Source: Anaerolineales bacterium (GTDB lineage Bacteria; Chloroflexota; Anaerolineae; Anaerolineales; UBA4823). From it: 64,000 nucleotides of DNA. Below are positions 13,852 through 59,887 of the stretch, piece after piece (the stretch's first letter is position 1; the number at the start of each line of letters is the position of its first letter). The stretch is from contig JAFGJM010000033.1 in assembly GCA_016929095.1 (NCBI GenBank), forward strand, positions 62,001-126,000. Reading direction: 5' to 3'. The notes under the pieces were generated by a model. The model worked only from the letters and a program-made list of their open reading frames with translations, was not told where the DNA came from and made no database searches. The translations under genes were made by a program, and so were the position numbers.

Positions 13852-13924
13852 GCCCCCATCGTCTAGGGGACTAGGACGCAGCCCTTTCAAGGCTAAAACC
13901 AGAGTTCGAATCTCTGTGGGGGCA
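13852..13924 (+). tRNA. tRNA-Glu (anticodon UUC)
   Basis: 73 bases fold as a cloverleaf: acceptor GCCCCCA/TGGGGGC, D arm GTCT...GGAC, anticodon loop CTTTCAA with TTC at 34-36, and T arm CAGAG-TTCGAAT-CTCTG. The discriminator base is A and CCA is not encoded (ACCT follows). The outermost pair of the anticodon stem is a mismatch (C-A). Its 3' half is the probable attachment site of the island that begins directly behind it. Confidence 0.93.
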
Positions 13925-14046
13925 CCTACCAAGGCCCATCTCGAACTGCGTGACATTGCAGTGGAAGAGTTCCTTGAGTCGTTACGATTTGACAAGCGTG
14001 ACAAACTCTCAGAACTCCCAAACGAATTGTTACGAGAGTGTTCGAG
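13925..14046. other. Island junction: fragment of unknown coding sequence behind the tRNA
   Basis: In frame with nothing that has a start of its own, this stretch reads AHLELRDIAVEEFLESLRFD... and ends with a TGA overlapping the next gene's ATG. It looks like the C-terminal 40 or so codons of a gene cut off by recombination at the tRNA 3' end. I do not recognise it. It could be the tail of a lost integrase, but no integrase motif is present. Confidence 0.4.
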
Positions 14047-21958: not shown

Positions 21959-22046
21959 TGTGAACGATCGTTTCTAGCAATGGATAAATTATCCTGGCAG
22001 AAAAACAGGTTAGATTATTCGGTCACTGACCTTGGAGATTTTTTAG

Positions 22047-25000: not shown

Positions 25001-25613
25001 AGAGCAGGCGACCCGGTGGATTGTATTGGAAGCCGCGATTGCACTGAACCAATATGCGATGCGCGAGGATATTGACCCGCATGATGGATTAAAACAATTG
25101 CTAGTCTGGAAGCCGGCTTCACAAGCGATTTCCTGCGAAGATGCTACTGGTCAAATCTCCCTACGAACCGCTACCATGAGTGCGCTAGATCGCCTTCAAA
25201 CAGACACTGTAGAGCATATCATTACCCTTGCGCAGGCAGGGGACAGCAATGCTGAGGAGACTTTAAAATCCTTAAGAGATTTTTTGGCGGCTACAGATAA
25301 GGAAAAAGACCTGGCCAGCCACGTGTTAACCTGGCAGCAGCAAGCAAAGTCTGTCATCGATGCAGCCTTGAAGGTCAAAGTGCCTGGTGGTTCAGACACA
25401 GATAAGGGCTCTGAAATACCTGGTAAAGCCGTTCGTGATAGGGAGCTTCATTTTAAGCTGTCTGCTCAGATTGAATTCGGAGGGATCACCCGCCCAATAC
25501 AGGGCCAGGATGCCGAAAATGCGCTCAGGACATTAGTCAATCATGTTGAATTGCCAGAGACAACCGAAAAAACAGAGCTCGTTATTCGTGTTCAGGTCTC
25601 AAAGGAAGAATAA
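22047..25613 (+). CDS. brxC: BrxC/PglY-type AAA+ ATPase of BREX (DUF6079)
   Basis: 1188 residues. The opening FDLPSEVPACIVKIQDF is typical of the PglY/BrxC family. Walker A HGSFGSGKSHFMAIL is near residue 73 and Walker B AVFLVDELILYL near residue 247. The long C-terminal half is helical, with a coiled stretch near residue 970 (NARNDLEKVQKHLGETLKLA). These ATPases are core BREX factors, thought to form an assembly with PglX and PglZ on DNA. It lies 88 bp after pglX and 10 bp before pglZ. In type 2 nomenclature it would be pglY. Confidence 0.88.
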   Translation: MADQKILDVFDLPSEVPACIVKIQDFDDNKTLQDNIRDYVITDSVAAEMERLVDRIVTSCVRQEAGAGHYLHGSFGSGKSHFMAILGLILENNPSIWTKEHVMIQDVQDRHGQWLADHPILVVPVYMLGQESLQRACYNAANQRLEKLRQPVCEFSDADKVIASFNTEAERYGEVVYQQFEAATGISAKRFARLVGSGQDERDELAQKILSYRNPSRTERAQLYPDKFSDGMAMLTQHALQQGFAGAVFLVDELILYLTGKGGREYVEEFNDLVALADNSALDRAVPLWVLVAKQRNIAETVPDDSSQQHIFDVMEHHKDRFPETTELADTELIPIVEERVLKIKAGKESVLESAVEGTINDLEPGVRQTLLHDLSLQDFRRVYPFHPALIRSLIDVSARLSRERAAIRLLYELLIKRYPDLPVGSLVPYSALFDVVFLRDGLAGGSRNEELEAVRQTYYERLEPLIQDAYGDTEQSTRARQIVKTVLLLGLSRGMRADIDVERILHLNYQNLKGRTAFGSYQIIAGILSDLDNRSELVHFTPNPTSPALGIAHITLATGVQLVDVLKRVQVNWRQRLETFQGLMKEMLNKPIQNGEIPNYERLWRGSRRKGRVRFVNVAELSTNDMVIQNGDEFTLFVDYPFSADVGHGRSEDRGVVDRAKAQLPPIPVGFWLPEEFTPEDLRDLEELARMGELESNPGQYLDQDYGRAQRDELLTKLVGQKRSKSRSLRERLLHVYKGSGAQVSFLDKAITPTLDVETLDAALDRISDTVCDRRYPHHPRFGTEANQRALRRLLEDFLVPAAIGSGTVARTADLDGWLTRLGIPLELAEQGAHNWTLLPQSRYLKKLEELASGRQVETNKIRRGLEDAFGFNRDLSDTLILYLVRGHGYRALRGTQPVTQLDYGILDGLVLERGERLAAHEWAQVKEMIQNTWGVPPQATDLTVGAQDQLWRQLNASARNARNDLEKVQKHLGETLKLAEIKQEQATRWIVLEAAIALNQYAMREDIDPHDGLKQLLVWKPASQAISCEDATGQISLRTATMSALDRLQTDTVEHIITLAQAGDSNAEETLKSLRDFLAATDKEKDLASHVLTWQQQAKSVIDAALKVKVPGGSDTDKGSEIPGKAVRDRELHFKLSAQIEFGGITRPIQGQDAENALRTLVNHVELPETTEKTELVIRVQVSKEE

Positions 25614-25623
25614 GTGAGCCAAT

Positions 25624-28155: not shown

Positions 28156-28164
28156 GAGCGTTTT

Positions 28165-30177
28165 GTGACCGTAGAACTTTGGATAGGCAAGGAATTTGAA
28201 ACCACTCATGAGATGAGCGCCTTGCGCTCATTCCTCTCACAGATGCAGGCGCGTTTCAGCAATGCCAAGGATCTGTATTTGATCCTGGCGAATTTTTTTT
28301 GCGAAGGTTCAGAAATAGATTTGGCGGTTATCAAAGAAAGAACTGTAATTGTTATCGAGTTGAAAGAATGCGACCAACCTGTTATCGGAAGCCAAAACGG
28401 AGATTGGGAAATTTTCGGAAATGGCTACTTGAACGTAGGTAGATTGAACCCTTATCAACAGGTGCGCGAATATCGTTATGCGTTGATGAATTACCTTTCT
28501 CGGACAAGATACGAATTCATGGATCGCCAAAAAGCACACCAGGTAAGCTTTGAGCACGTATCTGGGTTGGTAGCTTTCTCTCCCACCATGTCCGCCCAAA
28601 CGAAAATTGATATTCCTGCCAGGGATAAAAAATGGTTTGGCGTGGTTGGCCTGGATAATTTATGGAAAGAGATCGCCGACAGGCGCAGCACCAAGATCAA
28701 TATCAATCATGGCGAGGCTCGGAAGTTCGCGGCTCAAACATTGAGATTAAAGCGCGTCGATATCCAAGAGTATCTAACTGGTACAGATCGCGTAGATGAA
28801 CATCCGAAGATCATGCCGGTGCAAAAACCTGAACCTGTGAAGCCAGTCGCAAAATCATCGATCAATGGTCTTTCACTGAGAACCGATCTAGATCGCTTAA
28901 CTCAACCTGTGGCCTTGGATATTATTAACGCATTACGACGCGGCACCGTGCCTCAGACAGGGTTGGAATTCTTAGCGGTGGGTCTAGAGCGAGAAATGCG
29001 CAGTATAACCAGCCAGCTAAAACACATTCTCACCGGGCGAGGCGATTTTAAGTTTATTCGTGGCGCATATGGCGCCGGGAAAACATTCCTAAGCGCTCTG
29101 ACTCTTGAGGAAGCGCTGCAAAATGGCTTTGTGGTCAGTTATGTTGTGGTATCGACCGACACGCCGCTTTACAAGCTGGAAGCAATCTATCACAGGATGG
29201 TAAGTAATCTGCGCACGCGTGGTCAAGTCAGCGGCGCTCTGAAAGGCATTATTGACCGTTGGCTTTATTTAATCGAGGATAAAGTCATTGAGCTTGAAGG
29301 CTTTGATGAAGACGATCCCCGACTTACCGAACAGGTCCTTTACCAGATCGAAAATGATTTGTCGGAAGTAGCCAGTTTTCACTCTGCATTTAGCGCAGTG
29401 ATTCGTGGATACTACCATGCTCAATTGGAAGATGACTATCCCACTGCCCAGGCGTTATTAGGGTGGTTGGCTGGCGAGGCGCAAATCAGCGCCCAAGTAA
29501 AACGCAAGGTAAATATAAAGGGAGAGATTGACAATACCGTCGCTCTAGAGTTTTTGAGAGCCGTGAATGCAATTGCGCGCAAAGCCGGTATGTCCGGTTT
29601 AGCGATTGTGTTTGACGAAGTTGAAACTGTGCAGCGTTTGCGCCGGCCTCAACGAGAACAAAGCTTGAACACATTGCGCCAAATGGTTGATGCCATTGAT
29701 CATGGTGAATTCCCCTATACATACTTAATGTTTACCGGGACGCCGGGCTTTTTTGAGGATCGCCAAGGGGTGCCATCTTTGCAGCCATTACACGATCGCA
29801 TCAAGTTGGACAAACCCGACGATGCTTTTCCAAATCCTGAACTACCCCAGATTGTATTGCCAAAGTTCGATGCCCAAAAATTGCACGCTGTAGCTGATAA
29901 AGTGACACAAATCTATGAAACTGCCTATGATCCGATCGATCGTTCAAGGATCACGGATATTTTTGTTAATTTCATGATTGCTGAAGTTACCAGTAAGTTC
30001 GGTGGGCGGGTAGATATTGTACCGCGCCAGTTTATCCGTGATTTTATCAACGTATTGGACAAGGTTCGGCAATATGCCGAATATAACCCGGACGCCGAAT
30101 ATGAGTTTGATCAATCGGCAACACAAGATGATCTAACTCCGGTTGAAGAAGAAACCATTTCTCCGTTGACTTTTTAA
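28165..30177 (+). CDS. brxD: NERD-domain fused to BrxD ATPase
   Basis: 670 residues, starting at GTG 28165 with AGGAGCG in front. Residues 1-165 form a NERD-like nuclease-related domain: SEIDLAVIKERTVIVIELKEC carries the acidic/Lys core of PD-(D/E)XK-type folds. Residues 240-620 are BrxD (DUF2791): Walker A RGAYGAGKTFLSALTL near residue 300, and Walker B GLAIVFDEVETVQRLRRPQR near residue 480. BrxD occurs in type 2 and type 6 BREX. NERD domains are known in this setting on the PglW kinase of type 2, to my memory, but no kinase gene is present here. The fusion may bring the PglW-type DNA function into BrxD. Confidence 0.83.
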   Translation: MTVELWIGKEFETTHEMSALRSFLSQMQARFSNAKDLYLILANFFCEGSEIDLAVIKERTVIVIELKECDQPVIGSQNGDWEIFGNGYLNVGRLNPYQQVREYRYALMNYLSRTRYEFMDRQKAHQVSFEHVSGLVAFSPTMSAQTKIDIPARDKKWFGVVGLDNLWKEIADRRSTKININHGEARKFAAQTLRLKRVDIQEYLTGTDRVDEHPKIMPVQKPEPVKPVAKSSINGLSLRTDLDRLTQPVALDIINALRRGTVPQTGLEFLAVGLEREMRSITSQLKHILTGRGDFKFIRGAYGAGKTFLSALTLEEALQNGFVVSYVVVSTDTPLYKLEAIYHRMVSNLRTRGQVSGALKGIIDRWLYLIEDKVIELEGFDEDDPRLTEQVLYQIENDLSEVASFHSAFSAVIRGYYHAQLEDDYPTAQALLGWLAGEAQISAQVKRKVNIKGEIDNTVALEFLRAVNAIARKAGMSGLAIVFDEVETVQRLRRPQREQSLNTLRQMVDAIDHGEFPYTYLMFTGTPGFFEDRQGVPSLQPLHDRIKLDKPDDAFPNPELPQIVLPKFDAQKLHAVADKVTQIYETAYDPIDRSRITDIFVNFMIAEVTSKFGGRVDIVPRQFIRDFINVLDKVRQYAEYNPDAEYEFDQSATQDDLTPVEEETISPLTF

Positions 30178-30180
30178 GCT

Positions 30181-32313
30181 ATGGTTGAAAGCGCCTTCTT
30201 TACGCTTAATACCCGCCTCCAGGACGGGATTGCCCATAACTTGGGTTGGGCATCTTTGCGTCCAGTACAAGAATTAACCATAAACGCCGTTCTATGTGGA
30301 AATAACTGCGTGGTATTAGCCCCAACAGCTGGGGGAAAAACAGAAGCGGCTTTTTTCCCTATCCTGGATCTGATCTATAAAGAACAACGAAAACCTGTCA
30401 GCGTTTTATACATTTCCCCTCTCCGTGCTCTACTCAACAACCAGGAACCCCGATTAAAAAGGTTAGCCCAAATAGTTGGATTGGATGCATTCAAGTGGCA
30501 TGGGGATGTCCCCCAGACGGCCCGCCGCCGTTTTTTAGCTGAACCATGTCACCTGCTGATGATTACCCCGGAGTCGCTTGAAGTGATTATGATGTCGCCT
30601 ATGATTGATAAGGCGCGGTTGTTTTCATCTTTGCGATTTACCGTGATTGATGAAATTCATAATTTTGCTTCTGGGGATAGGGGGGCGCATCTCCTGGCGG
30701 TCTTAGAGAGGATCAAACGTTATACAGAGAACGATATCCAAAGGATCGGGTTATCCGCTACAGTGGGTAACCCAACGATTACCGCGGCATGGATGCAGGG
30801 TTCTAGCCGTCGTCCATCCGTTGTCGTTGATCCGCCAGAAGCGCCTGCGTCGCGTTTAATCCGCATTGACATTTACGACGACGATGGAGAATTAGCGCAG
30901 AAGGTAGCCCCGCGAGTTGTGGGGAGAAAAACGCTTTTCTTCGTAGAAGGCCGGCGTTTGGCGGAAGGGGTTAAACAGGCTTTAGCAGATGTATCCACAA
31001 TCAGTTACGTGCATCATTCATCTGTGGGTCGAGAATTACGTGAAGAAGTTGAGCAATCATTTACCTATGGACATGAAAATCAATGTATTGTGTGCACCAG
31101 CACGATGGAGCTTGGTATTGATGTAGGTGATTTGGACGCTGTCCTCCAACTAGACGCTCCAACTACGGTCTCGTCATTTTTGCAAAGGTTGGGACGCACC
31201 GGTCGCCGCTCCGAAACACAGGCCGAGATGAATTTCTACTGTGGCGATGAGATAGCTTTATTACGGGCAGTAGCTTTGGTTAATTTAGCCCGCAAAAAAT
31301 GGGTTGAACCCGTTATCCCTTCACAACGCGCCTTTCATGTCCTAATCCACCAGGTGCTTGCACAAGCTCTTCAACATTACGGTGCAACTAGATCTCAACT
31401 ATGGGAACTATGTCAAACTGCAACCCCCTTCCAGAACATCCAATATGATGAATTTGATCAAATTCTAACCCATCTTATTTACGAAGATATATTGCATCAA
31501 GCGGATGGGTTGATGGTTATGGGTAAAGCGGGCGAAAAAAGATATGGGAAGAAGAATTTTCTAGAACTATATTCGGTATTCGAAACGCCAGAAGAAATCA
31601 AAGTGCTTACAACAAATAATCGTTTGGTAGGTTCCCTGCAATCGTGGTTTATCGAGCAAGTATATCAGAGTGAAAGCTTTATTTTTACACTGGCAGGGCA
31701 GGCCTGGAAAGTTCAATATCTTGATTTTGAAGCAGCAATAATGTATGTCGTTCCTGCTCCCAAAGGTTCCATTCCACGATGGGGCGGGGCTGGGGCGTTA
31801 TTGAGCCGTGAAGTCGTTGAAGAAATGCTTGCTATATTACGAGCGGACGAAGTTTATCCATTCGTAACCCATAAAGCTCAATCGCAGCTGGAAAGAATGC
31901 GATCACATTGGAAGGATATCGTTTGGGATCACCACCCAACGCTGGATGTACATGGCCGTGAGTGGGTCATGTACACTTTTGCTGGAGATCGAATTAACCT
32001 ACTCCTGGCACGCTCTATTTCTATGGAATTAGGCTGTGAAGTCAATGGCGATAGCTTTTCACTTCGCATTAAGCCGCCTACACACGTGCCTCTGGCAGAA
32101 CACGAAATTCTCGCAACAATAAAATCAATCCAAACGCCCGACTATTTTTCGCAAGAACGCATCATGATCCTGGCAAGATCGCTCCCCAAAAGCCGGTTGA
32201 GTAAATTTCAAACTTTATTACCTCCAGAGATCGAAGCAAAGTTTATCGCGGAAAGGTTATTTGATGTGGATGGTTTACTGGGATGGTTAGATGAGCAAAA
32301 ACTTCAGTGGTAA
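30181..32313 (+). CDS. brxHI: BrxHI, Lhr-like superfamily 2 helicase of BREX
   Basis: 710 residues. Motif I APTAGGKTEAAFFPILD is near residue 48, motif II VIDEIHNFASG near residue 155, GLSATVGNP near residue 195, CTSTMELGIDVGDLDAV near residue 309 and the arginine finger RLGRTGRRSE near residue 337. The helicase core resembles Lhr. The C-terminal half is the BrxHI-specific domain. It follows brxD with a 3-bp gap, the conserved brxD-brxHI order of BREX types 2 and 6, and closes the BREX part of the island. The following 123 bp before the next system hold no gene. Confidence 0.87.
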   Translation: MVESAFFTLNTRLQDGIAHNLGWASLRPVQELTINAVLCGNNCVVLAPTAGGKTEAAFFPILDLIYKEQRKPVSVLYISPLRALLNNQEPRLKRLAQIVGLDAFKWHGDVPQTARRRFLAEPCHLLMITPESLEVIMMSPMIDKARLFSSLRFTVIDEIHNFASGDRGAHLLAVLERIKRYTENDIQRIGLSATVGNPTITAAWMQGSSRRPSVVVDPPEAPASRLIRIDIYDDDGELAQKVAPRVVGRKTLFFVEGRRLAEGVKQALADVSTISYVHHSSVGRELREEVEQSFTYGHENQCIVCTSTMELGIDVGDLDAVLQLDAPTTVSSFLQRLGRTGRRSETQAEMNFYCGDEIALLRAVALVNLARKKWVEPVIPSQRAFHVLIHQVLAQALQHYGATRSQLWELCQTATPFQNIQYDEFDQILTHLIYEDILHQADGLMVMGKAGEKRYGKKNFLELYSVFETPEEIKVLTTNNRLVGSLQSWFIEQVYQSESFIFTLAGQAWKVQYLDFEAAIMYVVPAPKGSIPRWGGAGALLSREVVEEMLAILRADEVYPFVTHKAQSQLERMRSHWKDIVWDHHPTLDVHGREWVMYTFAGDRINLLLARSISMELGCEVNGDSFSLRIKPPTHVPLAEHEILATIKSIQTPDYFSQERIMILARSLPKSRLSKFQTLLPPEIEAKFIAERLFDVDGLLGWLDEQKLQW

Positions 32314-32436
32314 GGGAAGAATACAACTGTGTTAGATTTTATTCAATCTGGTGAACTAGCAAGAATGCTCAGTTTGAGTATACCAATCGGATCATTCAGG
32401 AAGTTGTGATCATGAAAATAAACTAGATTCTATTCG

Positions 32437-36328: not shown

Positions 36329-37573
36329 ATGGCATCAACAATTTCCTGGCTAGACTTCTCAGAACAAGAACGACGCAAGATGATCGAAGTTATCGCGTCG
36401 TTCGGAGACCGCGACACCCGCGACGAGATGGGGCTGGCGCAAATCCGCGATGGATTTGCGGATATATTCTTTCCGGGTACGACAACACTTATGACCCGCG
36501 CCAGGTATTTCCTGTTCGTGCCCTGGATATACAAATATTACGAAGACTACAGAGAAAAGTCAGCCAGCATCGCCCGTAAAGTAAGAAAACGGGAGCTCAA
36601 CCTTATTAAAGCGCTCAAGAACGTAGGGGAAGAAGGGGTAATTGGTGAGCGATCTGGGGAGAGCCTTAATCGGTTTCCCTCAAATATTTACTGGAATGGT
36701 TTGAGTCGTTGGGAAATCTTAAAATTTAAGGCAACACAATCTCAATATCACCGTTCTTTGAATGGGTATTATGAATACTTACGTGTCTTGCCAAAAGCCG
36801 AGTCTTCTGATACAGAAATCACTCAGGATATCCATTTCAATTGGGACCCAGATATCCCCGATCCCCCAAAAGCGTTCCCATACGAAGCGACTTTTGAACT
36901 CACCCATCTTGAAGCCGAATACTTGATCGACAGACTTCGATCAGCATGCACCAAAAGCTTGATGTCTCATTTGGTCGATTATTGCTCCCCTGTAAACACG
37001 CAAGATGTCAGTTACCCCTGGCTTCATCCCCAAAAATCAGATTTTCCAGATCATCTTCAGAATTGGCTGTTTCATGCACAAAACTTCTCGGAGACGATGC
37101 AGGGATCGGCGCTGTTGTATAACTTGAGGCTGGCGGAACTCCGAAAATCGGATGAATTGATCGAACGTTATCGATACCGGATCGCAGATTGGTATCGCGA
37201 TCTACAGGATAGAGCAACGGAGTTAATCCGTTGGAAGATGACAGATTTTTGGGCACTGTTGGCTGAGGAAATCGGTCTCATCCATCCAAAAACCAGAAAA
37301 TTTATCAATCAATGGCAAGCAGTTTTGTTCGAAGGTGGGGAGATCATAAATCCGACCGATAATCAGATTATGCGACAAATTGTCTTTGGGCGCGAAACCT
37401 GGTTGAAACGCGGCGCATCCAGGCTGACCAGCTCACGCCATCTGGACATGTGGAGCGGCGCATCGGGTACTGGGCAATTGAATTATCGCTGGGTGGGGGG
37501 AAATCGACTGGTTCGAGATATCCAATTTGGTCTGATGACAGACCAGTGGAGTAATGATGCTGTCTCCGAATGA
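36329..37573 (+). CDS. DUF6361-like protein, first gene of a five-gene helicase-nuclease operon
   Basis: 414 residues. The conserved-looking opening STISWLDFSEQERRKMIEVI and the ARYFLFVPWIYKYYEDYRE segment near residue 57 match what I recall of DUF6361 proteins. It is soluble and basic with many aromatic residues, and shows no catalytic motif. Its 3' end overlaps the phospholipase-D-fold gene by 20 bp. From here five genes follow with overlaps or a gap of no more than 9 bp. A substrate-recognition or DNA-binding role is possible but is only inference. Confidence 0.6.
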   Translation: MASTISWLDFSEQERRKMIEVIASFGDRDTRDEMGLAQIRDGFADIFFPGTTTLMTRARYFLFVPWIYKYYEDYREKSASIARKVRKRELNLIKALKNVGEEGVIGERSGESLNRFPSNIYWNGLSRWEILKFKATQSQYHRSLNGYYEYLRVLPKAESSDTEITQDIHFNWDPDIPDPPKAFPYEATFELTHLEAEYLIDRLRSACTKSLMSHLVDYCSPVNTQDVSYPWLHPQKSDFPDHLQNWLFHAQNFSETMQGSALLYNLRLAELRKSDELIERYRYRIADWYRDLQDRATELIRWKMTDFWALLAEEIGLIHPKTRKFINQWQAVLFEGGEIINPTDNQIMRQIVFGRETWLKRGASRLTSSRHLDMWSGASGTGQLNYRWVGGNRLVRDIQFGLMTDQWSNDAVSE

Positions 37574-39443
37574 TCGGAAACTCTTTCTAAATGCGCTTAA
37601 ACCGCCCGAAGGCTACCAGTTTGATCGGGGTTTGGGAACCACCTTTACACTGGATTTGCTGACGCTTCTGATTGCCCCCGTATCCTTGGCGCTATTTGAC
37701 AGTGGCAGCGCAGATGAGGCCTTGCAAGATCCACTGCTGACTTTGGAAAGCCTGCGCCGCTATGCAAAGCGGCTATTGATATTCTGTAGTAGTGGGTATA
37801 TTTCCATTCCCAAAAGGGTCAACTATTTGTTTTCCTATCTTGAGGATATGGTAGTAGAATTGCAGGCTCCGAAAGGGGGATATTTCCACCCAAAAATATG
37901 GTTACTCAGATTCATCAATGAGAACGAGACAGATTCACCGATTTACCGGCTTTTATGTCTCTCTCGTAATTTAACCTTCGATCGGTCTTGGGATTTGATG
38001 GTCCAGCTTGAAGGCGAAGTTGCCGCTCACAGAAAAATGGGCTACTCTCAAAACCGCCCTCTGAGCGATTTTATTCAAACATTACCTGAGTTAGCGGTTC
38101 AAAAGGCATCGACAAGAGTCCAAGAAGATATCAGCCTATTAGCCGATGAAGTTCGTCGTGTTGTTTTTACCACCCCAGACAACTTCAGCGGCCATATTGC
38201 TTACTACCCATCGGGAATCCCTGGATACCGCAGCTATCGTTTCAAAGAACCCTATCGCCGAATGCTGGTTGTTTCACCTTTCCTGACAAATGGATTTCTC
38301 AATGAAAGAACCAAGCAAGGCCAGGATCATGTCTTGATCTCCCGGCTTGATAGCATTGACGATTTATCACATCCTTGTCGCAAGCGCTTCAAAGAGATCT
38401 ACGTACTCGACGATGATACAGATATGGAGATCGATGATCTGGCTGAAGAAATCTCAACCAATATTGATGAAACCGAAGCTGACAGGCCGAAGAAAATCGA
38501 GTTGTCCGGATTGCACGCCAAGTTACTTGTCCTGGAGGATCGGAACTATGCCACCTGGTTAATTGGATCGGCCAATGCCACGGACGCTGCTTTTCGTGGA
38601 AGCAACGTGGAATTTATGATTGAACTAAAAGGCAGAAAAAACGCCATAGGTATCGATAAAATACTCGGGGATGATGAAAATAAATACTCATTGCGTGCGA
38701 TTCTGAACGAGTATCCTCAAACAAGACCCCAATTTTCTAAAGACAACAGCCAGGCCAAATCAGATGAACTCGCTGATCATGTGCGGGAATGGCTAATCCA
38801 TTCCAAAATGGAAATCGCCGTAACCCCATCAGGGGAAGATAACTTCGACTTGGCGATAGACAGAAAATCCGAGGCACCTCCACCAGATGGAGCATACCAA
38901 ATATATTGTTGGCCGATCAGCCTAAAACCAGATCAAAAACAAGTCGTTCGAATCGCCAATTCGGTTGAGATAGCCAAGTTTGGAAATCTTAGCATTTTGA
39001 GCCTGACGCCATTCATAGCCTTCGAGATTGAAGCGGAAAAGGATGGTGTAAAGGCCGAAATCCAATTTGTGTTGAGATTGCCAATCTCTGGTCTTCCTGA
39101 TCGAAGGGACGATTATATCTTTGGGGCGATTATTTCAAACCGGATGCAATTTCTGCGTTATCTGCGTTTGCTCCTGGCTGGTGAATATGGGTTTCAACTC
39201 CCAGAACTGACCTATGGGAACGGCAAATGTCGTCAAGATTTCGATTTAAGTTGGGAAGATCTCGACCTGCCTTTACTAGAAGAATTAGTCCGAGCATTAA
39301 GCCGGTCACCAAAAGAGAAAATTGACCGCATTGCTAAAATTGTGGAGCAGCTTGAACGCACGCCAGATAGTAAGACGATCATACCGGTAGAATTCAATCT
39401 CTTGTGGGAGGCGATTATCAAGGCCAGGAGTGACATCGAGTGA
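37554..39443 (+). CDS. Phospholipase-D-fold (HKD) nuclease-like protein
   Basis: 629 residues with two PLD-type half-sites. The first is GGYFHPKIWLLRF near residue 108, followed by LCLSRNLTFDRSWDL. The second is GLHAKLLVLEDRN near residue 319, followed by LIGSANATDAAF. Both carry H-x-K, with an asparagine-containing loop behind, the catalytic arrangement of PLD phosphodiesterases and of the nuclease-like DrmC of DISARM. GGAG lies before the ATG. The stop overlaps the start of the helicase gene (GTGA). It probably cuts or processes DNA together with the helicase. Confidence 0.75.
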   Translation: MMLSPNDRKLFLNALKPPEGYQFDRGLGTTFTLDLLTLLIAPVSLALFDSGSADEALQDPLLTLESLRRYAKRLLIFCSSGYISIPKRVNYLFSYLEDMVVELQAPKGGYFHPKIWLLRFINENETDSPIYRLLCLSRNLTFDRSWDLMVQLEGEVAAHRKMGYSQNRPLSDFIQTLPELAVQKASTRVQEDISLLADEVRRVVFTTPDNFSGHIAYYPSGIPGYRSYRFKEPYRRMLVVSPFLTNGFLNERTKQGQDHVLISRLDSIDDLSHPCRKRFKEIYVLDDDTDMEIDDLAEEISTNIDETEADRPKKIELSGLHAKLLVLEDRNYATWLIGSANATDAAFRGSNVEFMIELKGRKNAIGIDKILGDDENKYSLRAILNEYPQTRPQFSKDNSQAKSDELADHVREWLIHSKMEIAVTPSGEDNFDLAIDRKSEAPPPDGAYQIYCWPISLKPDQKQVVRIANSVEIAKFGNLSILSLTPFIAFEIEAEKDGVKAEIQFVLRLPISGLPDRRDDYIFGAIISNRMQFLRYLRLLLAGEYGFQLPELTYGNGKCRQDFDLSWEDLDLPLLEELVRALSRSPKEKIDRIAKIVEQLERTPDSKTIIPVEFNLLWEAIIKARSDIE

Positions 39444-42400
39444 AGACCACCGATACTGAACGGCCTGATGTCAAAGCAATTCTGCAGAGTCTGAAGGATT
39501 TTCAGCGCGATACAGTCGAGTATGTTTTTCGGCGATTGTACAAAGACGAGGATCGGGTCTCTCGGTTTCTAATTGCCGATGAAGTCGGTCTAGGAAAAAC
39601 TCTCGTTGCTCGCGGCATCATTGCCAGAGCAATCGATGAGTTGTGGAATGATACAGAAAGAATTGATGTTGTCTATATTTGCTCGAACCAGCAAATCGCC
39701 CAACAAAATATCGATCGCTTGAACATCACCCAGGATCGCCATTTTCAGTTCGCATCCAGAGCGACTTTATTGCCGATCACGATCCAGCAACTTCAAAAGA
39801 ATAAGCTAAATTTTGTTTCGCTGACACCTGGAACATCTTTCAACCTTCGATCCCGTACTGGAAGAGCTTGGGAGCGCGTCGTTCTTTACTATATGCTCCG
39901 TAAAGCCTGGGACACTCAGGATGGCACTTTATCCAACTTCTTGAGAGGAGACGTCTTAAAATCAAATTGGAACAGCGACATACGCTGGTTTCGAAAGAAC
40001 AAAAAAGTGGATCGCGCCCTACAACAGGCATTTGAGCAGGAGCTTGCAAAGCATTCAGGGTTGCGAGACGATTATGAGAAGATAGCAGGTCTAATCGGGA
40101 GTCGCCGAACGAATATTCCGGGAGAAACCAAGTCGGAACGCAACAAGTTTATTGGGAAGTTTCGTGGAGTTCTCGCACACTCGAGTCTAGGGGAACTGCA
40201 GCCGGATTTGATCATCCTGGACGAATTCCAACGCTTTAAAAACATCCTGGATGAGAAAGACGATATGGCTGTTCTAGCCAAAGAACTCTTTGAATTTCGG
40301 GATGCTACCACAGAACGTGAAGCAAAAGTCATCTTGTTATCTGCAACCCCTTATAAAATGTACACAATCCGAGGGGAAGAGGACGAGGACCATTACAAGG
40401 ACTTCATTCATACAACTCGTTTCCTGCTTGAACATATGCCTGGCAGCCTTTCTCAACTTGAAGCTGGAATCGAAAATTTTCGCCGCTCATTTTTTAAACT
40501 CAGTTTTGATCGTGAAGCAAAAAATGATTTGCTAATTGCAAAATCCAAGATAGAGGATGCCCTGCGCAAAGTTATGGTCCGAACTGAACGCCTGGCTGTA
40601 TCCAAAGACCGCAACGGAATGTTGACAGAAACGCAAACAGCCAAGGATCGTGTTGAGCCCCAGGATTTGACCGCTTTTGTGCATCTGGATAAAATCGCAC
40701 AGGTGCTCCAGGTAGAAGACCAAGTTGAATATTGGAAGTCATCAGCTTACCCTGTAAACCTGATGGATCAATACAAACTTAAACGGGAGTTCCGAAAAAC
40801 CATAAAGCAAGAGCAACAAGGGGAATTGTATGCAACGCTCGAAAACGCTCAGCCTCATCTATTGGATTGGGAACTAATCCAGGGATACCAGAACCTAGAT
40901 CCGAATAATGCACGTTTGCGTGCATTGGCTGAGCAATCCATTGAGTCGAATAATTGGCAGTTACTCTGGTTACCGGCCTCATTACCATACTATGCCCCGA
41001 ATTGGGATAGTCCATACGCAAATCAGACCAGTGAAGCAGGCACGACCAAAACACTCGTCTTTTCGTCATGGCGGATTGTACCCAAGGTAATTGCAATCAT
41101 GCTCAGCTATGAAGCTGAAAGGCTTATCATTGGAGAAAACCAGAAAGAATTCCAATACGACAAGTTCACTTCGCAAAGGAGTAATTTGCTTCGTTTCACT
41201 AAGGTGGATGGCAGGCTCACGGGAATGCCCATCTTCTCTCTACTTTACCCTTGTATGACACTGGCTGAAAAAATTGACCCATTGTTCATCTCAAGGGAGT
41301 TTGAACAGGGTAACCCTACAAGTTTCTACGTAATTCTCAAAGTCAGGGAGAAGATTAAAGACCTTTTAAACCAAGCGACTGCCTCGATTCGAGAACAGAG
41401 AGATGGCAGGGATGATGATCGCTGGTATTGGGCTGCTTTAGCATTACTTGACCGGCGCTTTTATAGGAATTCCATAAACGAGTGGTTCCAAACGACTGAT
41501 GCAGAATTAGCTTGGCACAGAATGCTCAAACCAGGTTCGGAGGATGATCAGGAAAGCGGTTTTGTCGAGCATGTACGGGAATTCATAGAATTATTCAAAT
41601 CAGAAAAAGTAAGCTTAGGGAAAAAACCCGATGACTTGGAAGAAGTCTTGGCAAGAGTTGCACTTGCCGGACCTGCTGTAGCAGCACTACGTGCGCTAAT
41701 CAGAGTAACCGACACACCCAATGTATCACATGTTTTCCAGGCCTCTGCTGCGCAGGTTGGTTTGGGTTTCCGGAAACTGTTCAACCAACCAGACACAATA
41801 ACATTGCTGCAAAACCTGTATCCAGATGAAGATTATTGGCAGGCGGCTTTACATTACTGCGTTGATGGGAACTTACAAGCGGTTTTAGATGAATATGTTC
41901 ATATCCTCAACGAGTCGATCGGCGTTTTTGGCCATGACCCTGACGAAAGCGCATCAAAAATTGTCGAAAAGATCAAAATCGCTTTGGCACTAGATGCACA
42001 ACGGAATTTTTTCGATAATATTAAACTTGATACTGCTGCTAAAGCGATTCTTCCTCTGGACCCTCATGCCATTCGCTGTCGATATGCCCTGCGTTTTGGC
42101 AGCGAACAAGGAGAAGAAATCGATGGCAATACAACCGATGGGAATATTCGCGAAGCTTTCAATTCTCCATTTCGCCCCTTTGTTCTTGCAACAACCTCCA
42201 TTGGACAGGAAGGATTGGATTTTCACCAATATTGCCATCGTATTGTCCACTGGAATTTGCCTTCCAACCCTGTTGATCTGGAACAAAGGGAAGGAAGAAT
42301 CCACCGCTATAAAGGCCATGTGATCCGGCGTAATATAGCCCACAATTATGGGTTGGACAAAATCCTACAAAAACAATACTCTACAAGGGTAGATCCATGG

Positions 42401-42712
42401 CTTGAACTGTTTAAATATGCTTGTGGTGAGCGCCCAGAGGGAACGAATGAATTGATGCCATATTGGATATTCGACCAAGGCATATACTCCATTGAGCGGC
42501 ACGTGCCTCTGCTGCCATTGAGCCGTGAAGTCAGCAGGCTAAAACGATTAAAGAATTCACTGGTCGTATATCGATCTGTAATCGGGCAGCCCAGGCAAGA
42601 AGAACTGCTCCAGTTTCTTGATGAACAGGAGAACTTATCTTCCGAAGAGAAAAAGAACATTCTTGCTGAAGCAGTGATAGACCTGAGCCCACCAGTAATC
42701 AAAAATCTTTGA
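39440..42712 (+). CDS. SNF2/RapA-like superfamily 2 helicase
   Basis: 1090 residues, starting at GTG 39440 within the preceding stop (GTGA overlap). Motif I LIADEVGLGKTLVARGI is near residue 44, motif II LIILDEFQRFKNI near residue 255, motif III LLSATPYKMY near residue 299 and motifs V-VI ATTSIGQEGLDFHQYC...LEQREGRIHR near residues 915-955. The DEVGLGKT form and the EGLDFHQ/Q-R-E-G-R-x-H-R pair are those of RapA/HepA-type SNF2 translocases and of DrmD in class 1 DISARM. The long insertion between the helicase halves (about residues 380-880) is specific and of unknown role. Dense coupling with the PLD gene suggests one complex. Confidence 0.8.
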   Translation: MKTTDTERPDVKAILQSLKDFQRDTVEYVFRRLYKDEDRVSRFLIADEVGLGKTLVARGIIARAIDELWNDTERIDVVYICSNQQIAQQNIDRLNITQDRHFQFASRATLLPITIQQLQKNKLNFVSLTPGTSFNLRSRTGRAWERVVLYYMLRKAWDTQDGTLSNFLRGDVLKSNWNSDIRWFRKNKKVDRALQQAFEQELAKHSGLRDDYEKIAGLIGSRRTNIPGETKSERNKFIGKFRGVLAHSSLGELQPDLIILDEFQRFKNILDEKDDMAVLAKELFEFRDATTEREAKVILLSATPYKMYTIRGEEDEDHYKDFIHTTRFLLEHMPGSLSQLEAGIENFRRSFFKLSFDREAKNDLLIAKSKIEDALRKVMVRTERLAVSKDRNGMLTETQTAKDRVEPQDLTAFVHLDKIAQVLQVEDQVEYWKSSAYPVNLMDQYKLKREFRKTIKQEQQGELYATLENAQPHLLDWELIQGYQNLDPNNARLRALAEQSIESNNWQLLWLPASLPYYAPNWDSPYANQTSEAGTTKTLVFSSWRIVPKVIAIMLSYEAERLIIGENQKEFQYDKFTSQRSNLLRFTKVDGRLTGMPIFSLLYPCMTLAEKIDPLFISREFEQGNPTSFYVILKVREKIKDLLNQATASIREQRDGRDDDRWYWAALALLDRRFYRNSINEWFQTTDAELAWHRMLKPGSEDDQESGFVEHVREFIELFKSEKVSLGKKPDDLEEVLARVALAGPAVAALRALIRVTDTPNVSHVFQASAAQVGLGFRKLFNQPDTITLLQNLYPDEDYWQAALHYCVDGNLQAVLDEYVHILNESIGVFGHDPDESASKIVEKIKIALALDAQRNFFDNIKLDTAAKAILPLDPHAIRCRYALRFGSEQGEEIDGNTTDGNIREAFNSPFRPFVLATTSIGQEGLDFHQYCHRIVHWNLPSNPVDLEQREGRIHRYKGHVIRRNIAHNYGLDKILQKQYSTRVDPWLELFKYACGERPEGTNELMPYWIFDQGIYSIERHVPLLPLSREVSRLKRLKNSLVVYRSVIGQPRQEELLQFLDEQENLSSEEKKNILAEAVIDLSPPVIKNL

Positions 42713-42721
42713 GTTAAACTT

Positions 42722-45700
42722 ATGTTGGCAAACTTGTACCTTTCACCTACGACCAGCACAGCATTCAACCATCTAATAAACCGCATTCGGGCTATAAAAG
42801 ACACAGATATACTGACCCCGGTAACCCTCCTTCTCCCCACCGCCGATGTCATTCAAGATATGCGCGGCCAATTGGGAGATACGATGGGTGTGCAGATGTT
42901 CCAATTCTATCGTCTGGGGAACGCGGTGCTGAATGAGGCGGGAATCCCTATCCACGAGATCAATGACACCGCTGTCCGCCGCCTGATCCGCCGTATTCTT
43001 TGGGAATTGAACGCCGAAGGCTTGCTGACAACCTTTGCGCCCGTGTGGGAGAAGCCTGGCTTTGTCGAAGTGATCCTGGATTGGGTGCGGGAGTTGAAAA
43101 GCCAAGGTATCTTTCCCGAAGACTATGCTGAATATGCCCAGGTAGCAGGGACAGAACGAGATCACCAGCTAGCCGAAATCTACCTGCGCTACCAGACTTT
43201 CATGCAGGGGGGTAACTATTCGGACCCCGATGGCCTCTTGTGGGTCACTGCCGAGGCGCTCGAAGGCGATCCGGCCCTTTTCAGGCAAGATGGCCCGATC
43301 TTTGTTCTCGGCTTCGACCAGTTTACGCCGATACAGATCCGTATTCTGGGGAAATTGGCCGAGAGATGCACCGAACTGACCGTCTATTTACTTTGGGACG
43401 AAAACCGCTCTGAGGACAGTCTGGCCTTGGCTCGTTTGCGCCGGACGAGAGAATCGTTGTTAGACGGGCTTCCAATGGAAATCACAATGATTCCTGAAGA
43501 GCAACCCTCGCCCCCCTCACTAGAGCACCTTCACCAATCGATCTTCGACACAAGCGATCATCAGACAGCTGATAACGAATATTTGCGGCTTATCGAAGCC
43601 CCATCTCGAGAGGCCGAAGTGCGCCAGACCTTGCGTGAGGTCAAGCGGTTGCTCATAGAGGGTATCTCTCCGTCTGAAATTAGCTTCCTGACTCCAAATA
43701 AAAACGCCTATCTTCCGATCATCCGCACCGTATCCACAGAATATGGGGTGCCGGTTGAATATGAGCGACCGCTGATGGGCAACCCGGCTGTGGCTGCGCT
43801 GGTCAACTTACTAAAACTGCCCTCCAGTTTCCCATGGGGACCCACGTTTGATACCTTACGCTCACCTTATATCCACCAATCCTGGCTAACAGAAGAGCAG
43901 ATTGACTTGCTCGATCAACTCAGCCGCGAGCGCCCTGTTATCGCCGGGCGCGATCAATGGGCTTTTGCCATGCGCTCTCTGGACCTGGACGCCCTGGATA
44001 GTGAAGACGATGATCTTGGCCCGCCGCCCCTTGTGGCTACACTAGATCCTGACACGTTGGCAGGTATCCAAGAGGGGATGACAGCCTTCTTCGATCACCT
44101 CACCCCACCGGCGAAAGCAACCTACCGTGATTACACCTGGTGGCTACAGACCGCTATCATTGGCTACTTCCCCGAACCCGAGAGTGAAGAAGAGCAGGCA
44201 GCTGAGTCAGAGCCTACACTAGATTTGGTTGGATGCTGTCGTGGGGGGCCTTTCAACTCCCGCGATATGGAAGCGCTCAACCTTGTGATGCGGGCATTAA
44301 GACGATTACTGGCTTCTGCTGAAACTGTACCGGTCGATACGGAAATCCACTGGGAGACCTATCGGGATGAACTATTGTTGTTGCTAAGAGTGATGCAGAT
44401 CCCGCCGGACCCTCTTCAGGCCAATGTGCGATTTGCACGTATGGAAGAGGGGCGCGCCCGGGTAGTCGACTACTTGTTTGTCTTGGGTTTATCGGAAGGC
44501 GAGTTTCCCAAACCACCACCGCCAGATACGCTCTACGCCCCCTATGAGCGCGAAAATCATCCCCTACCATTAATTCGATATTCACCAGCCGATGATGCAT
44601 CGCTGTGGTGGCAGGTGATCAGCAATGTAAACCAGCGGCTAATCCTTTCACGCCCCTATATAGATGACAATGGCGCTCCCTGGCAAGCGTCTCCATATTG
44701 GGATGCAGTCAGCGACTGTTTCTCCGAATTAGAAGCTATTCACATCCCAATCGCCGATCACCCATCCCCGGAAAATGCGGCCAGTCAAAGCGAACTGCTG
44801 GTTGGGTTGGCTCAAACCGGAGCCAGGACAATCCCTAGCGCGTTGCAAACGCACTGGGCTTATGCTCAAAATGCCGAGGCCATCATCCACCAGAGAAATA
44901 GTTATAATCCGCCAGGTGAATATGAAGGGGTTCTGGCATCAGCTTCCCTGAAGGATGAATTAGCCGGGCGCTTTGGAGACGGGCATGTGTGGAGCGCCTC
45001 TCGCTTGAACCGTTATGCGAACTGCCCGTATGGTTTCTTTGCAGAACATGTGCTCAAACTTGAGGCCCGCCAGGATCCCGAAGAAGGTTTGAATGCATTG
45101 CAAAGAGGGAGTTTGCTGCATGCGATCCTGGAGAATCTCTACGGGCGTCTGACGGATATGGGGATCGCCCCTACAGAAAGCAATCAGGAGACCATCATTC
45201 ATTTACTTGAAGAATGCTGCGACGAAGTTTACCCCTCCGCCCCTCAGCGCTACGGCTTCCGCCCGAGTGCATTGTGGGAATATGAGCAGCAGGAGTTGTT
45301 CAGATTATTGCGCGCCCTGGCGATTTGGGAATGCGAAACAAACGGTCCGGAGGCTCGCTTTATGCCATATCTGCAGGAGGCCGGATTTGGCATAGGTAGG
45401 GAGGGTCCGCCGCCTTTAGAAATCGTAGATGAACAACCCCGAGTTCGCTTACGAGGCTTGATTGACCGTATCGATCGCGACCATGTGGGCAATTTACGGG
45501 TGATTGATTACAAGAGTGGCAGCTCAACCTGGTCCAAGACAGATATGCAAATAGGTCTGGCCTTGCAGACAGCGCTTTATGCCCTGGCAGCAGAGCGGTA
45601 TTGGGTCAGTGAAGGTGGGCGCATAGCTGAAAGCCATTACTTGCACATTCCAAGCCGAAATACCAGCGGCAAATTAAGTATATCCGGGGCAGTTCAGCAA

Positions 45701-45892
45701 GATGGCCTGGCTGAAGAAATCATCCAACAGGCAATCCGCAGTGCTGCTATGGTACGAGCAGGCGTTTTCCCCAGCGCGCCGGGAAAACCCGTCCAGGGTG
45801 GAATGCAGTGCAGCAGTCGTTGCGATTTTGCACCCATATGCAGGGTGACCCGATGTAGCATCGTCAAAGCTCGGCGGGGAGGCTTGGCGTGA
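42722..45892 (+). CDS. AddB-like nuclease subunit (PD-(D/E)XK with iron-sulfur staple)
   Basis: 1056 residues. The N-terminal part has the fold of an inactive superfamily 1 helicase: it starts LYLSPTTSTAF without any G-x-G-K-T. The C-terminal nuclease has ASRLNRYANCPYGFFAEHVL near residue 760 and LRVIDYKSGS near residue 923, the D-Y-K of a RecB-type PD-(D/E)XK domain. CSSRCDFAPIC sits at the end. The first Cys plus these three form the 4Fe-4S staple of AddB proteins. The AddA-like gene overlaps by GTGA. AddAB resects double-strand breaks, but here the pair belongs to a defence operon. Confidence 0.82.
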   Translation: MLANLYLSPTTSTAFNHLINRIRAIKDTDILTPVTLLLPTADVIQDMRGQLGDTMGVQMFQFYRLGNAVLNEAGIPIHEINDTAVRRLIRRILWELNAEGLLTTFAPVWEKPGFVEVILDWVRELKSQGIFPEDYAEYAQVAGTERDHQLAEIYLRYQTFMQGGNYSDPDGLLWVTAEALEGDPALFRQDGPIFVLGFDQFTPIQIRILGKLAERCTELTVYLLWDENRSEDSLALARLRRTRESLLDGLPMEITMIPEEQPSPPSLEHLHQSIFDTSDHQTADNEYLRLIEAPSREAEVRQTLREVKRLLIEGISPSEISFLTPNKNAYLPIIRTVSTEYGVPVEYERPLMGNPAVAALVNLLKLPSSFPWGPTFDTLRSPYIHQSWLTEEQIDLLDQLSRERPVIAGRDQWAFAMRSLDLDALDSEDDDLGPPPLVATLDPDTLAGIQEGMTAFFDHLTPPAKATYRDYTWWLQTAIIGYFPEPESEEEQAAESEPTLDLVGCCRGGPFNSRDMEALNLVMRALRRLLASAETVPVDTEIHWETYRDELLLLLRVMQIPPDPLQANVRFARMEEGRARVVDYLFVLGLSEGEFPKPPPPDTLYAPYERENHPLPLIRYSPADDASLWWQVISNVNQRLILSRPYIDDNGAPWQASPYWDAVSDCFSELEAIHIPIADHPSPENAASQSELLVGLAQTGARTIPSALQTHWAYAQNAEAIIHQRNSYNPPGEYEGVLASASLKDELAGRFGDGHVWSASRLNRYANCPYGFFAEHVLKLEARQDPEEGLNALQRGSLLHAILENLYGRLTDMGIAPTESNQETIIHLLEECCDEVYPSAPQRYGFRPSALWEYEQQELFRLLRALAIWECETNGPEARFMPYLQEAGFGIGREGPPPLEIVDEQPRVRLRGLIDRIDRDHVGNLRVIDYKSGSSTWSKTDMQIGLALQTALYALAAERYWVSEGGRIAESHYLHIPSRNTSGKLSISGAVQQDGLAEEIIQQAIRSAAMVRAGVFPSAPGKPVQGGMQCSSRCDFAPICRVTRCSIVKARRGGLA

Positions 45893-48800
45893 AACCTACC
45901 CCTGAACAACTTCTCGCAATTGAAACTCAGGATCGCACCCTTGTAGTAGAGGCGGGGGCTGGTACGGGTAAGACCTGGGTGCTGGTTCGGCGCTTTATGC
46001 ATCTGCTAGAAAATCATCCTGACTGGCCTTTGGACAGTATTCTGGCGATCACATTCACAGAAAAGGCCGCTCGTGAGATGCGCACCCGTTTACGCCAGGC
46101 AATCGAAAAGCAAGCCAGAGACAATCCGGGGGATCGCCATTGGGGAGATCACCGCCTCAACCTGGATCGGCTCAATGTCAGTACCATTCACAGCCTGTGT
46201 GCACGAATTCTGCGCGAAAATGCTATCGCCGCCGAAATCGATCCCCGTTTTCAGGTGGTTGATGTGCAGGAATCGGAATTACTAAAAGAAGAGGCTATCC
46301 GAGCGACCATCCAGATCCTGGATGAGGAAAATCTTCCTGCATTGGAACTGCTCGCATCCCTTCGCGTTTTCGACCTAAGAGAAGAGATGGAATCCATGTT
46401 GAGCAAGCGTGGAACACTCTATCAGTTATTCACAGATCTAGATGAGCCAAAAGCACTGCTCAGCCTATGGCAATCGGGCTTGGAGGAAATGCGAGCCTCT
46501 ATTTGGGCTGAACAGTTGCGGGAAGAACCCTCACTCAGCGAAGCACTCGAAACATTGCCCCATATTGAGATTACTGACCCCGAAGACAAACTGGCCGGAA
46601 GTGTCATGACCGGTCAACAAGGATGTCGGGAGCTATCCGTAAATGACCTAATTGAGGCGGCAAATCATTGGTCTCAAATAAACCTCCGTGGGGGGAGTCA
46701 GGCCAATTGGGGCGGGAAGGAAGAATTAGCTGCTTTGAAAGGGATGTTAGGCGCGGTAAGGGACGCTGCTAAAGCACTCAATAAAGCCGGCGCTTTGCAA
46801 GAAATCGATCAAAGAGACGTAATGGCTGCAGAGCACCTTCATCTTTGGCGCTCATTGTGGGAGAGGCTTGAGGATACCTACAGCCAGATCAAAGAATCAC
46901 AACAAGCCTTGGATTTTGACGATCTTGAGTTACTTACCGACCGGCTTTTGCAGCAAGAGCCGCGCTCTCATCGCCTGCAGGGCTTTCTCGATAGCATCAA
47001 CCACCTGATGGTCGATGAATTCCAAGACACCAATCTGGTCCAACAGCGCATTGTCTATGCACTGGCTCCGCTGGAACAAGCCGGTAAGCTGTTCGTGGTT
47101 GGGGATGCCAAACAAAGCATCTACCGCTTCCGCCAGGCCCAGGTGAGTATCTTCAATCGCACATCTGCTGAGGTCGAGACTGTTACCGGGCAAAAGCCCG
47201 TTCCTTTGAGCACTTCTTTCCGCACACATCAAAGCCTGGTGCAGGCTACTAATAGCTTGTTTGAGGATATCCTGTCACCATTGGGGGAGACATACACGCC
47301 CTACGAGGCGTTACCAGGGTCGCTAACCGCCAACCGGAAAGCTCATCCGGAACTGCCAACCCCGATTGAAATGCTTCTGCTTACGGCGAAAGATCAGCAG
47401 GATCATCCCATTAGCGCTGAAGATGCACGCATCTGGGAAGCTCAATGGATCGCCCAACGGCTGCTTGAGCTAAAGGAGTCACAGGTTCAGGTATGGGACA
47501 AACACGCAGGAGCCTATCGTCCATTCGAATATCGTGATGCCGCAGTTCTCTTCCGAGCAACCACTCAACTGCCGCTCTACGAAGCTGAATTCAAGCGATT
47601 TGGACTTCCTTATCTGACCGTGAGTGGGCGCGGCTACTATGATCGCCCAGAGGTGCAGGATCTAATCTCCCTGCTAGGTGCTCTGGCAAACCCGGCCGAT
47701 GATTTAAACCTGGCTGCAGCCTTGCGTTCTCCTCTGTTCTCCTTGAGCGATGAAACCCTTTACCGGCTGCGCTGGCACACGCCAGAAGGTTTACAAGCTA
47801 GAGAGCCAATCCCTTATCGGGAGGCTCTAACCAACCCACCGACAAATGATCAACCCGAATTTGTCAGTCGGGCATACTCAATCTTGTCGGAACTGTGGGC
47901 GCTCGCCAACAAGGTGGAAGTCTGGACATTGCTGCATGCAGCGCTTGAATTGGGTGGTTATGAAACAACCTTAGCCAAATATGATGGCCAGACCGGGCGA
48001 CAGCGCTCAAACGTTCAGAAGTTCCTGACCCTGGCTAGAGAAAGGGGTGAGATCAGCCTGTCGGATTTCTTACGCCGGTTGCGAGATTTGAAGGCACGCG
48101 AGGCCAGGGAAGGAGAGGCTTTAGGGCGGGAACCGGAAAGCGGAGCAGTGCAGTTGATGTCGATCCATGCATCCAAGGGGCTTGAGTTTCCTGTGGTGGT
48201 GGTGGCGGATATGGGGCGCCAAAAGCGCGCCGGTTTTGGATCACCATACTTGTTGCACGATCCTACTTTCGGACTGGTGTGTAAAGTGCGAGATGGGTTG
48301 GGCGATTGGATCAAACCGGCGGGGTTTGCCTGGGGAGAATGGCTGCATAATCGTATGGAAGAAGCCGAAAGAAAGCGGCTATTGTATGTAGCCTGTACGC
48401 GAGCCGCTGATTTGCTCATCATGTCAGGCCAGGTTGGGAAAAGTGACACATGGCTTACGGAGATTCTAGATTCGTGGGAGATTGAAAGTGACGGCCCAGA
48501 GGGTGAAAGTATAAATTATGAGAATTTCGCCATTCAGGTGTTCCGACCCCTTGAGCAACCTGATTTAGAAGAGCGAGCTGCTGAAAGCATTCCCGAAAGC
48601 CCTGGAATGGACACAATACCGCCGCTTGCGATGCCTGTCCCAGTCCGGCCACAACCACAACCGGTCGCCGTCACCCGACTGGAGGCTTTGCTTGGTCGAG
48701 AAGATGATGAACCTACTGTATTCCATCCAGCCTTTTGGAGTAACGAGCGCCCAACCAGGACCCGGCGCGCGCCTGGATATCTGATTGGTAATATCGTCCA

Positions 48801-49296
48801 CAGAGCGCTTGCGCACTGGGGCTGTCTTGAATATCCTGAAGGCCAATTATTGCGCCAATTGGAAAACTATGCCCGGCGTGAAGGTGTCTTTTCCAATGCC
48901 TTGGTGGATGCAGTCCAACGCTCATACCAGATGCTGCAGAACTTGAAAGCCCATGGTATTTACCAAGACATCCAAAACGCACAACGACGCTATCACGAAA
49001 TGCCCTTCACCCTATCTTCCGGCGCCGGAATATTGCATGGGATCTTTGATTTGCTCTATCAAGATAAAACCGAAGCCTGGCATTTACTAGATTGGAAAAC
49101 CGAATGGACGCCAAGATCTGAAATCGAAGAGAATGCCCAAAATCATCTCACGCAGATGGCCGCCTATGCCCGGGCTGTTAATCATAATCTAGGCGTGATG
49201 CCATCTGTATGCCTGTGCTTCTTGTCCCCCAGGGCTATTCTGTATCAGTTCTCAACAGAAACTATTTCGGACACGTTATCCGAAATTGGTGAATAG
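45889..49296 (+). CDS. AddA-like helicase-nuclease subunit
   Basis: 1135 residues, starting at GTG 45889 in the AddB stop. Superfamily 1 helicase motifs: VEAGAGTGKTWVLVRRFM near residue 17, AITFTEKAAREM near residue 53, LMVDEFQDTNLVQQRIVY near residue 373, FVVGDAKQSIYRFRQA near residue 402 and LLYVACTRAADLL near residue 828. The C-terminal PD-(D/E)XK domain shows ILHGIFDLLYQDK then WHLLDWKTEW near residues 1047-1070. This is AddA architecture: a 3'-5' translocase with its own nuclease. It is the last gene of the five-gene operon and of the whole rightward defence run. Whether it also serves chromosomal recombination cannot be seen here. Confidence 0.83.
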   Translation: MKPTPEQLLAIETQDRTLVVEAGAGTGKTWVLVRRFMHLLENHPDWPLDSILAITFTEKAAREMRTRLRQAIEKQARDNPGDRHWGDHRLNLDRLNVSTIHSLCARILRENAIAAEIDPRFQVVDVQESELLKEEAIRATIQILDEENLPALELLASLRVFDLREEMESMLSKRGTLYQLFTDLDEPKALLSLWQSGLEEMRASIWAEQLREEPSLSEALETLPHIEITDPEDKLAGSVMTGQQGCRELSVNDLIEAANHWSQINLRGGSQANWGGKEELAALKGMLGAVRDAAKALNKAGALQEIDQRDVMAAEHLHLWRSLWERLEDTYSQIKESQQALDFDDLELLTDRLLQQEPRSHRLQGFLDSINHLMVDEFQDTNLVQQRIVYALAPLEQAGKLFVVGDAKQSIYRFRQAQVSIFNRTSAEVETVTGQKPVPLSTSFRTHQSLVQATNSLFEDILSPLGETYTPYEALPGSLTANRKAHPELPTPIEMLLLTAKDQQDHPISAEDARIWEAQWIAQRLLELKESQVQVWDKHAGAYRPFEYRDAAVLFRATTQLPLYEAEFKRFGLPYLTVSGRGYYDRPEVQDLISLLGALANPADDLNLAAALRSPLFSLSDETLYRLRWHTPEGLQAREPIPYREALTNPPTNDQPEFVSRAYSILSELWALANKVEVWTLLHAALELGGYETTLAKYDGQTGRQRSNVQKFLTLARERGEISLSDFLRRLRDLKAREAREGEALGREPESGAVQLMSIHASKGLEFPVVVVADMGRQKRAGFGSPYLLHDPTFGLVCKVRDGLGDWIKPAGFAWGEWLHNRMEEAERKRLLYVACTRAADLLIMSGQVGKSDTWLTEILDSWEIESDGPEGESINYENFAIQVFRPLEQPDLEERAAESIPESPGMDTIPPLAMPVPVRPQPQPVAVTRLEALLGREDDEPTVFHPAFWSNERPTRTRRAPGYLIGNIVHRALAHWGCLEYPEGQLLRQLENYARREGVFSNALVDAVQRSYQMLQNLKAHGIYQDIQNAQRRYHEMPFTLSSGAGILHGIFDLLYQDKTEAWHLLDWKTEWTPRSEIEENAQNHLTQMAAYARAVNHNLGVMPSVCLCFLSPRAILYQFSTETISDTLSEIGE

Positions 49297-59651: not shown

Positions 59652-59678
59652 AATTGAATTGATAAAAACACGATGCAT

Positions 59679-59875: not shown

Positions 59876-59887
59876 TAGGGGGAACAG

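Follow-up and report, generated by a model that had tools for sequence, protein, structure and literature searches.

Whether defence islands bring along end-processing enzymes of their own, and for what reason, is a general question raised by a locus in a 64,000-nucleotide stretch of DNA of an Anaerolineales bacterium (the whole stretch is called the window hereafter), in which five ORFs encoding proteins of 414, 629, 1090, 1056 and 1135 amino acids are arranged on the + strand at positions 36329-49296. The junctions are, in order, a 20-bp overlap, a 4-bp overlap, a 9-bp gap and a 4-bp overlap (-20, -4, +9 and -4 bp), and the coordinates, the common strand and this tight packing all confirm the single five-gene operon that a preliminary description had proposed. 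Judged from its sequence, the locus is best read as a new variant of the Azaca system that would be equipped with its own DNA-end-processing machine.

Identity of the first three genes

PADLOC profile matches assign genes 1-3 to Azaca (zacABC), a named anti-phage system; the name is attributed to Millman et al. (2022), as PMC10952713 supports. The product of zacA (36329..37573, + strand; 414 aa), a DUF6361 protein (PF19888, 8e-53), matches positions 1-394 of the 396 of the ZacA profile (6.5e-124, 412 bits). That of zacB (37554..39443, + strand; 629 aa) matches positions 1-582 of the 586 of ZacB (1.8e-167, 557 bits), and that of zacC (39440..42712, + strand; 1090 aa), in the same operon, positions 5-1016 of the 1019 of ZacC (1124 bits). 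Three proteins matched in full length, in order and tightly packed are what the operon shares with Azaca, whereas PADLOC has only the three components ZacA-C and the operon in the window adds AddB and AddA. The ZacA-ZacB-ZacC order is present across phyla, for example on plasmids of Cronobacter, Halomarina and Haliscomenobacter. The earlier view that the five genes correspond to no named system is only half right, since genes 1-3 belong to Azaca according to PADLOC. A literature search, for which subscription papers were mostly outside reach, turned up no study of the mechanism of Azaca and no description of Azaca or Shango joined with AddAB.

ZacA is predicted to be all-helical by an AF2 model of high confidence (mean pLDDT 90.5), and a structure search of the PDB and viral libraries gave no fold relatives at E<=0.001. 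ZacB, a putative PLD-superfamily phosphodiesterase, matches Pfam PLDc_2 weakly (20 bits, below the Pfam cut-off) and has two HxK motifs, H112/K114 with N139 and H321/K323 with N341; the HxK pairs and the asparagines are invariant across 40 sequences. Its AF2 model (pLDDT 86) finds tyrosyl-DNA phosphodiesterase as the best fold match in the PDB (9.7e-9), followed by phospholipase D and two restriction enzymes of the PLD type, SauUSI and the NgoAVII R protein, with modest TM-scores (0.32/0.44). ZacC is an SNF2/RapA-like SF2 translocase with a complete motor, in which the motifs GLGKT, DEFQ, SATP, QEGLDF and QREGRIHR are intact and invariant, and RapA is its top sequence match in the PDB. An SNF2-type helicase (DrmD-like motifs in ZacC) near a PLD protein is also a feature of DISARM, but neither DrmB (DUF1998) nor a methyltransferase was found among the five proteins with Pfam and PADLOC. 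The match of ZacC to DrmD is partial, covering about 65 residues (53 bits; 61 against 610 bits in NCBIfam), with no full-length match to DrmD or DrmA. Membership of DISARM is rejected on these grounds, as it had been at first reading.

The AddB-like and AddA-like pair

Genes 4 and 5 encode, side by side as in AddAB, a PD-(D/E)XK protein similar to AddB (42722..45892, + strand; 1056 aa) and an SF1 helicase similar to AddA (45889..49296, + strand; 1135 aa). The former has the Pfam domains PDDEXK_1 and ADDB_N (PF12705, 1e-39; PF21445, 8e-21) and matches B. subtilis AddB in the PDB at 2e-19; the latter has UvrD_N/UvrD_C (PF00580, 3e-58) and matches B. subtilis AddA at 4e-67. The AddAB-type pair of the preliminary description is thus supported by Pfam, NCBIfam and PDB sequence matches. 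Reading of the sequences revealed a C-terminal PD-(D/E)XK motif (GLIDRID..RVIDYKSG) and four cysteines positioned as the AddB Fe-S staple (C768, C1030, C1034 and C1040) in the AddB-like protein, and the SF1A helicase motifs AGAGTGKT and VDEFQDTN in the AddA-like protein. The latter also has a C-terminal PD-(D/E)XK-like motif (HGIFDLLY..LLDWKTE), which was recognised by eye and is not called by Pfam. Taken together, these motifs are those of a single SF1 helicase and of two nuclease sites of the PD-(D/E)XK type. The pair resembles AddAB of the B. subtilis type in the AddB N-domain, in the combination of Fe-S-type cysteines with PD-(D/E)XK and in the UvrD-like AddA helicase with a C-terminal nuclease-like motif. 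It differs in its defence-operon setting, in the N-terminal domain of AddB, where no Walker A was detected on reading the sequence, and in scores far under the NCBI equivalog cut-offs (TIGR02773, 176 against 904 bits; TIGR02785, 381 against 708 bits). Because the scores lie under these curated cut-offs, the genes are termed AddAB-like and are not named as orthologues.

Genomic setting

The defence island recognised earlier is borne out by a Gabija system and a BREX-2-like set upstream of the operon on the same strand. Gabija consists of gajA (32437-34542, + strand; PADLOC GajA, 924 bits) and gajB (34535-36277, + strand; PADLOC GajB, 844 bits), and zacA starts 51 bp downstream. The BREX-2-like set (18353..32313, + strand; BREX_2_MTaseX, 677 bits; BrxD, 463 bits) has gene starts at 18353 (pglX), 22047 (brxC/pglY), 25624 (pglZ), 28165 (brxD) and 30181 (brxHI); it precedes Gabija in the region 18353-36277, with 123 bp between the two. 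The BrxD-like protein (28165-30177) has an N-terminal NERD nuclease-related domain fused on.

To the left of the island, a tRNA-Glu gene (13852..13926, + strand), which may be the left boundary of an integrated element, is followed by a ParM-like actin gene (14332-15432), and ParA-like and Replic_Relax genes (58878-60760) lie to the right. These genes suggest an integrated mobile element as the probable location of the locus, with ends not located in the window: no repeat of the tRNA-Glu 3' end that could be an attachment site was found within the window. In the sister genome, nothing matches the gene on the left flank. A 1046-aa protein with NACHT-type NTPase and FGE-sulfatase domains (60843-63983) adjoins the ParA-like and replication-relaxation genes.

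A housekeeping addAB might happen to adjoin an Azaca insertion. The finding that the preliminary description had named as speaking against its operon, a pair that is the only addAB of its genome and is usually encoded elsewhere apart from genes 1-3, is half borne out. In the window's genome (87% complete) the search for a further AddB or AddA/RecB gave nothing, the addAB of relatives usually stands without Azaca, and one of the close AddA relatives has ordinary neighbours. On the other hand, AddB is patchy in the order (70 of 301 genomes and 39 of the 174 good ones, a few matches being weak), was not found in a genome of the same genus (G128), and is missing from most genomes of the family. 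Since addAB is patchy in the order and missing from the same-genus genome, it does not look like a housekeeping gene that is fixed in this lineage.

Recurrence of the coupling

At least 565 relatives of ZacA were found by scanning GTDB genomes, and 80 loci were retained for neighbourhood counts. An AddA-like gene lies near Azaca on the same strand in eight of the 80 (L081, L082, L083, L090, L093, L094, L102 and L142), and AddB is also visible in five of them (L081, L082, L083, L094 and L102). AddA is a fragment at a contig edge in L090, a fragment in L093, and 4.2 kb away from Azaca in L142. The AddBA pair is placed after ZacC in the window and in L083, which has the same gene order with AddAB 5 bp after ZacC and whose host has a second AddB elsewhere in its genome. 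In the other loci the pair is placed before ZacA, and in L102 AddA overlaps ZacA. L102, which equals L060, comes from a named Chloroflexi contig and is carried by G603, a genome of the same phylum as the window, so that the window's phylum would be Chloroflexota. With eight loci, AddA is the joint first recurrent neighbour family, tied with a cluster including an Mrr-like gene. In L081, an Mrr-like protein (8542-9570; recognised by eye), whose similarity cluster is found near Azaca in eight loci, lies between AddA and ZacA.

On plasmids, AddB-AddA lies directly before ZacA in 10 of the 15 non-Cronobacter cases with full-length Azaca, AddB being 3.4-3.5 kb upstream of ZacA, a distance equal to the length of AddA, and none of the 19 Cronobacter Azaca plasmid records is among the AddB matches listed; these counts include related plasmids and do not represent independent events. 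The co-occurrence of AddAB with genes 1-3, first noticed in the window, is thus recurrent in both genomes and plasmids. Expected random matches in the 80 loci are well under one, as estimated from genome size. Given this recurrence in unrelated genomes and plasmids and the relatives without AddB, placement of a housekeeping addAB by chance is disfavoured and very improbable. Because most Azaca loci are without an adjacent pair, AddAB is an optional partner of Azaca and not a defining one, and the Azaca core would therefore work without adjacent AddAB or use a host enzyme.

In the AddA tree, the Azaca partners are polyphyletic and fall into several separate clades, by which an Azaca-specific AddAB clade is rejected. 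In R. etli the Azaca partner has as its sister a Sulfitobacter partner with a Shango-type neighbour, and not the Bradyrhizobium Azaca partner; the placements of L093, L094 and L102 are unsure on account of long branches. In the ZacC tree, a quick method counts eight label changes for the eight AddAB-bearing rows, and the AddAB label does not cluster. ZacC of the window is closest to that of L081, whose AddAB is of a different lineage and on the opposite side. The polyphyly of AddA and the eight changes on the ZacC tree indicate that AddAB was joined to Azaca repeatedly and independently, and the absence of label clustering that the coupling, although repeated, would not have been maintained for long. 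The closest AddA relatives of the window lie without Azaca, one beside gyrB/ADH (G181) and the other beside WYL and SbcCD-like genes (G298).

Possible roles of the pair

Repeated independent recruitment of AddAB suggests that Azaca involves a step at DNA ends. With a likelihood that we place slightly short of even, the window has an Azaca operon in which the in-operon AddB-AddA serves as an end-degrading arm, on a probable mobile element and in a genome where no other addAB was found. The SNF2-type motor ZacC together with ZacA would engage invading DNA and travel along it, and ZacB, as a PLD-superfamily phosphodiesterase, may nick or cut this DNA or free blocked ends. AddAB would load onto the ends, unwind the DNA and degrade it. 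Such a cut by ZacABC followed by degradation by AddAB is plausible from the predicted activities. An AddAB of its own might make Azaca operable in hosts without RecBCD/AddAB, and might also allow escape from inhibitors that phages have adapted to the enzyme of the host. What tells against an end-degrading arm is that an adjacent AddAB is missing from most Azaca loci, that the AddA proteins closest to that of the window are without Azaca, that the AddAB label does not cluster on the ZacC tree and that clustering in defence islands could by itself raise co-location. The control for co-location is one system, Gabija, on plasmids, where the AddBA module was found on one of the 60 plasmids listed, and that one is an Azaca plasmid. 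Plasmids were used since the PADLOC GajA model, being specific to a subtype, had a match in no genome of the phylum but that of the window.

Alternatively, AddAB processing could mark self ends, while Azaca and the adjacent Gabija attack unoccupied ends, such as those arising when AddAB is blocked by a phage; the pair would then avert autoimmunity in a host otherwise without RecBCD/AddAB. This guard or licensing role is a serious rival, if an unlikely one, because in P. aeruginosa self DNA is shielded from Gabija by RecBCD, and strong expression of Gabija is not tolerated by cells that lack recB (PMC12407980). In the window, Gabija lies immediately upstream of the operon, so that a single island combines Azaca and Gabija with the one addAB found in the genome, which ties the locus to the role of RecBCD in deciding the targets of Gabija. 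However, the other Azaca-AddBA loci examined are mostly without a nearby Gabija, with a plasmid of R. phaseoli as the exception, and the pairing therefore seems to follow Azaca and not Gabija.

AddBA beside other defence systems

A role in repair, in which AddBA mends breaks that defence nucleases make in the host, or is of service to the mobile element, and lies beside whichever defence system is aboard, is quite unlikely. It would fit the one alphaproteobacterial-type AddBA lineage that adjoins, besides Azaca, Shango-type genes (L191 and L193), BREX-1 (L219 and L222), type III R-M-like genes (L192 and L221) and multiubiquitin/ThiF genes (L195 and L218) on plasmids; the names follow the annotation, except for the Shango and type III R-M assignments, which are readings of the gene sets. 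It fits less well with the tight same-strand packing with Azaca (a 9-bp gap and 4-bp overlaps in the window), which is found on either side of Azaca in unrelated lineages. The alphaproteobacterial plasmid module is similar to the pair in the window in that a PD-(D/E)XK and UvrD pair immediately precedes ZacA or adjoins another defence system, but it belongs to a separate AddA clade and has a shorter AddB (886 aa). More broadly, AddAB-type pairs might be a mobile immune module that was recruited independently many times by Azaca and other DNA-targeting defences and gives end processing immune to phage inhibitors of RecBCD/AddAB; this generalisation is possible, if rather doubtful. In a Desulfosarcina plasmid (L196, 8513-18152), nucleotidyltransferase, ThiF and Mov34 genes are followed by an AddBA module, which is also of the alphaproteobacterial type. 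In two relatives from the order, DpdE/ZorD-like SNF2 proteins are encoded directly upstream of AddB(-AddA) (L210, 2082-5012; L211, 1956-5036), an arrangement that echoes ZacC-AddB-AddA.
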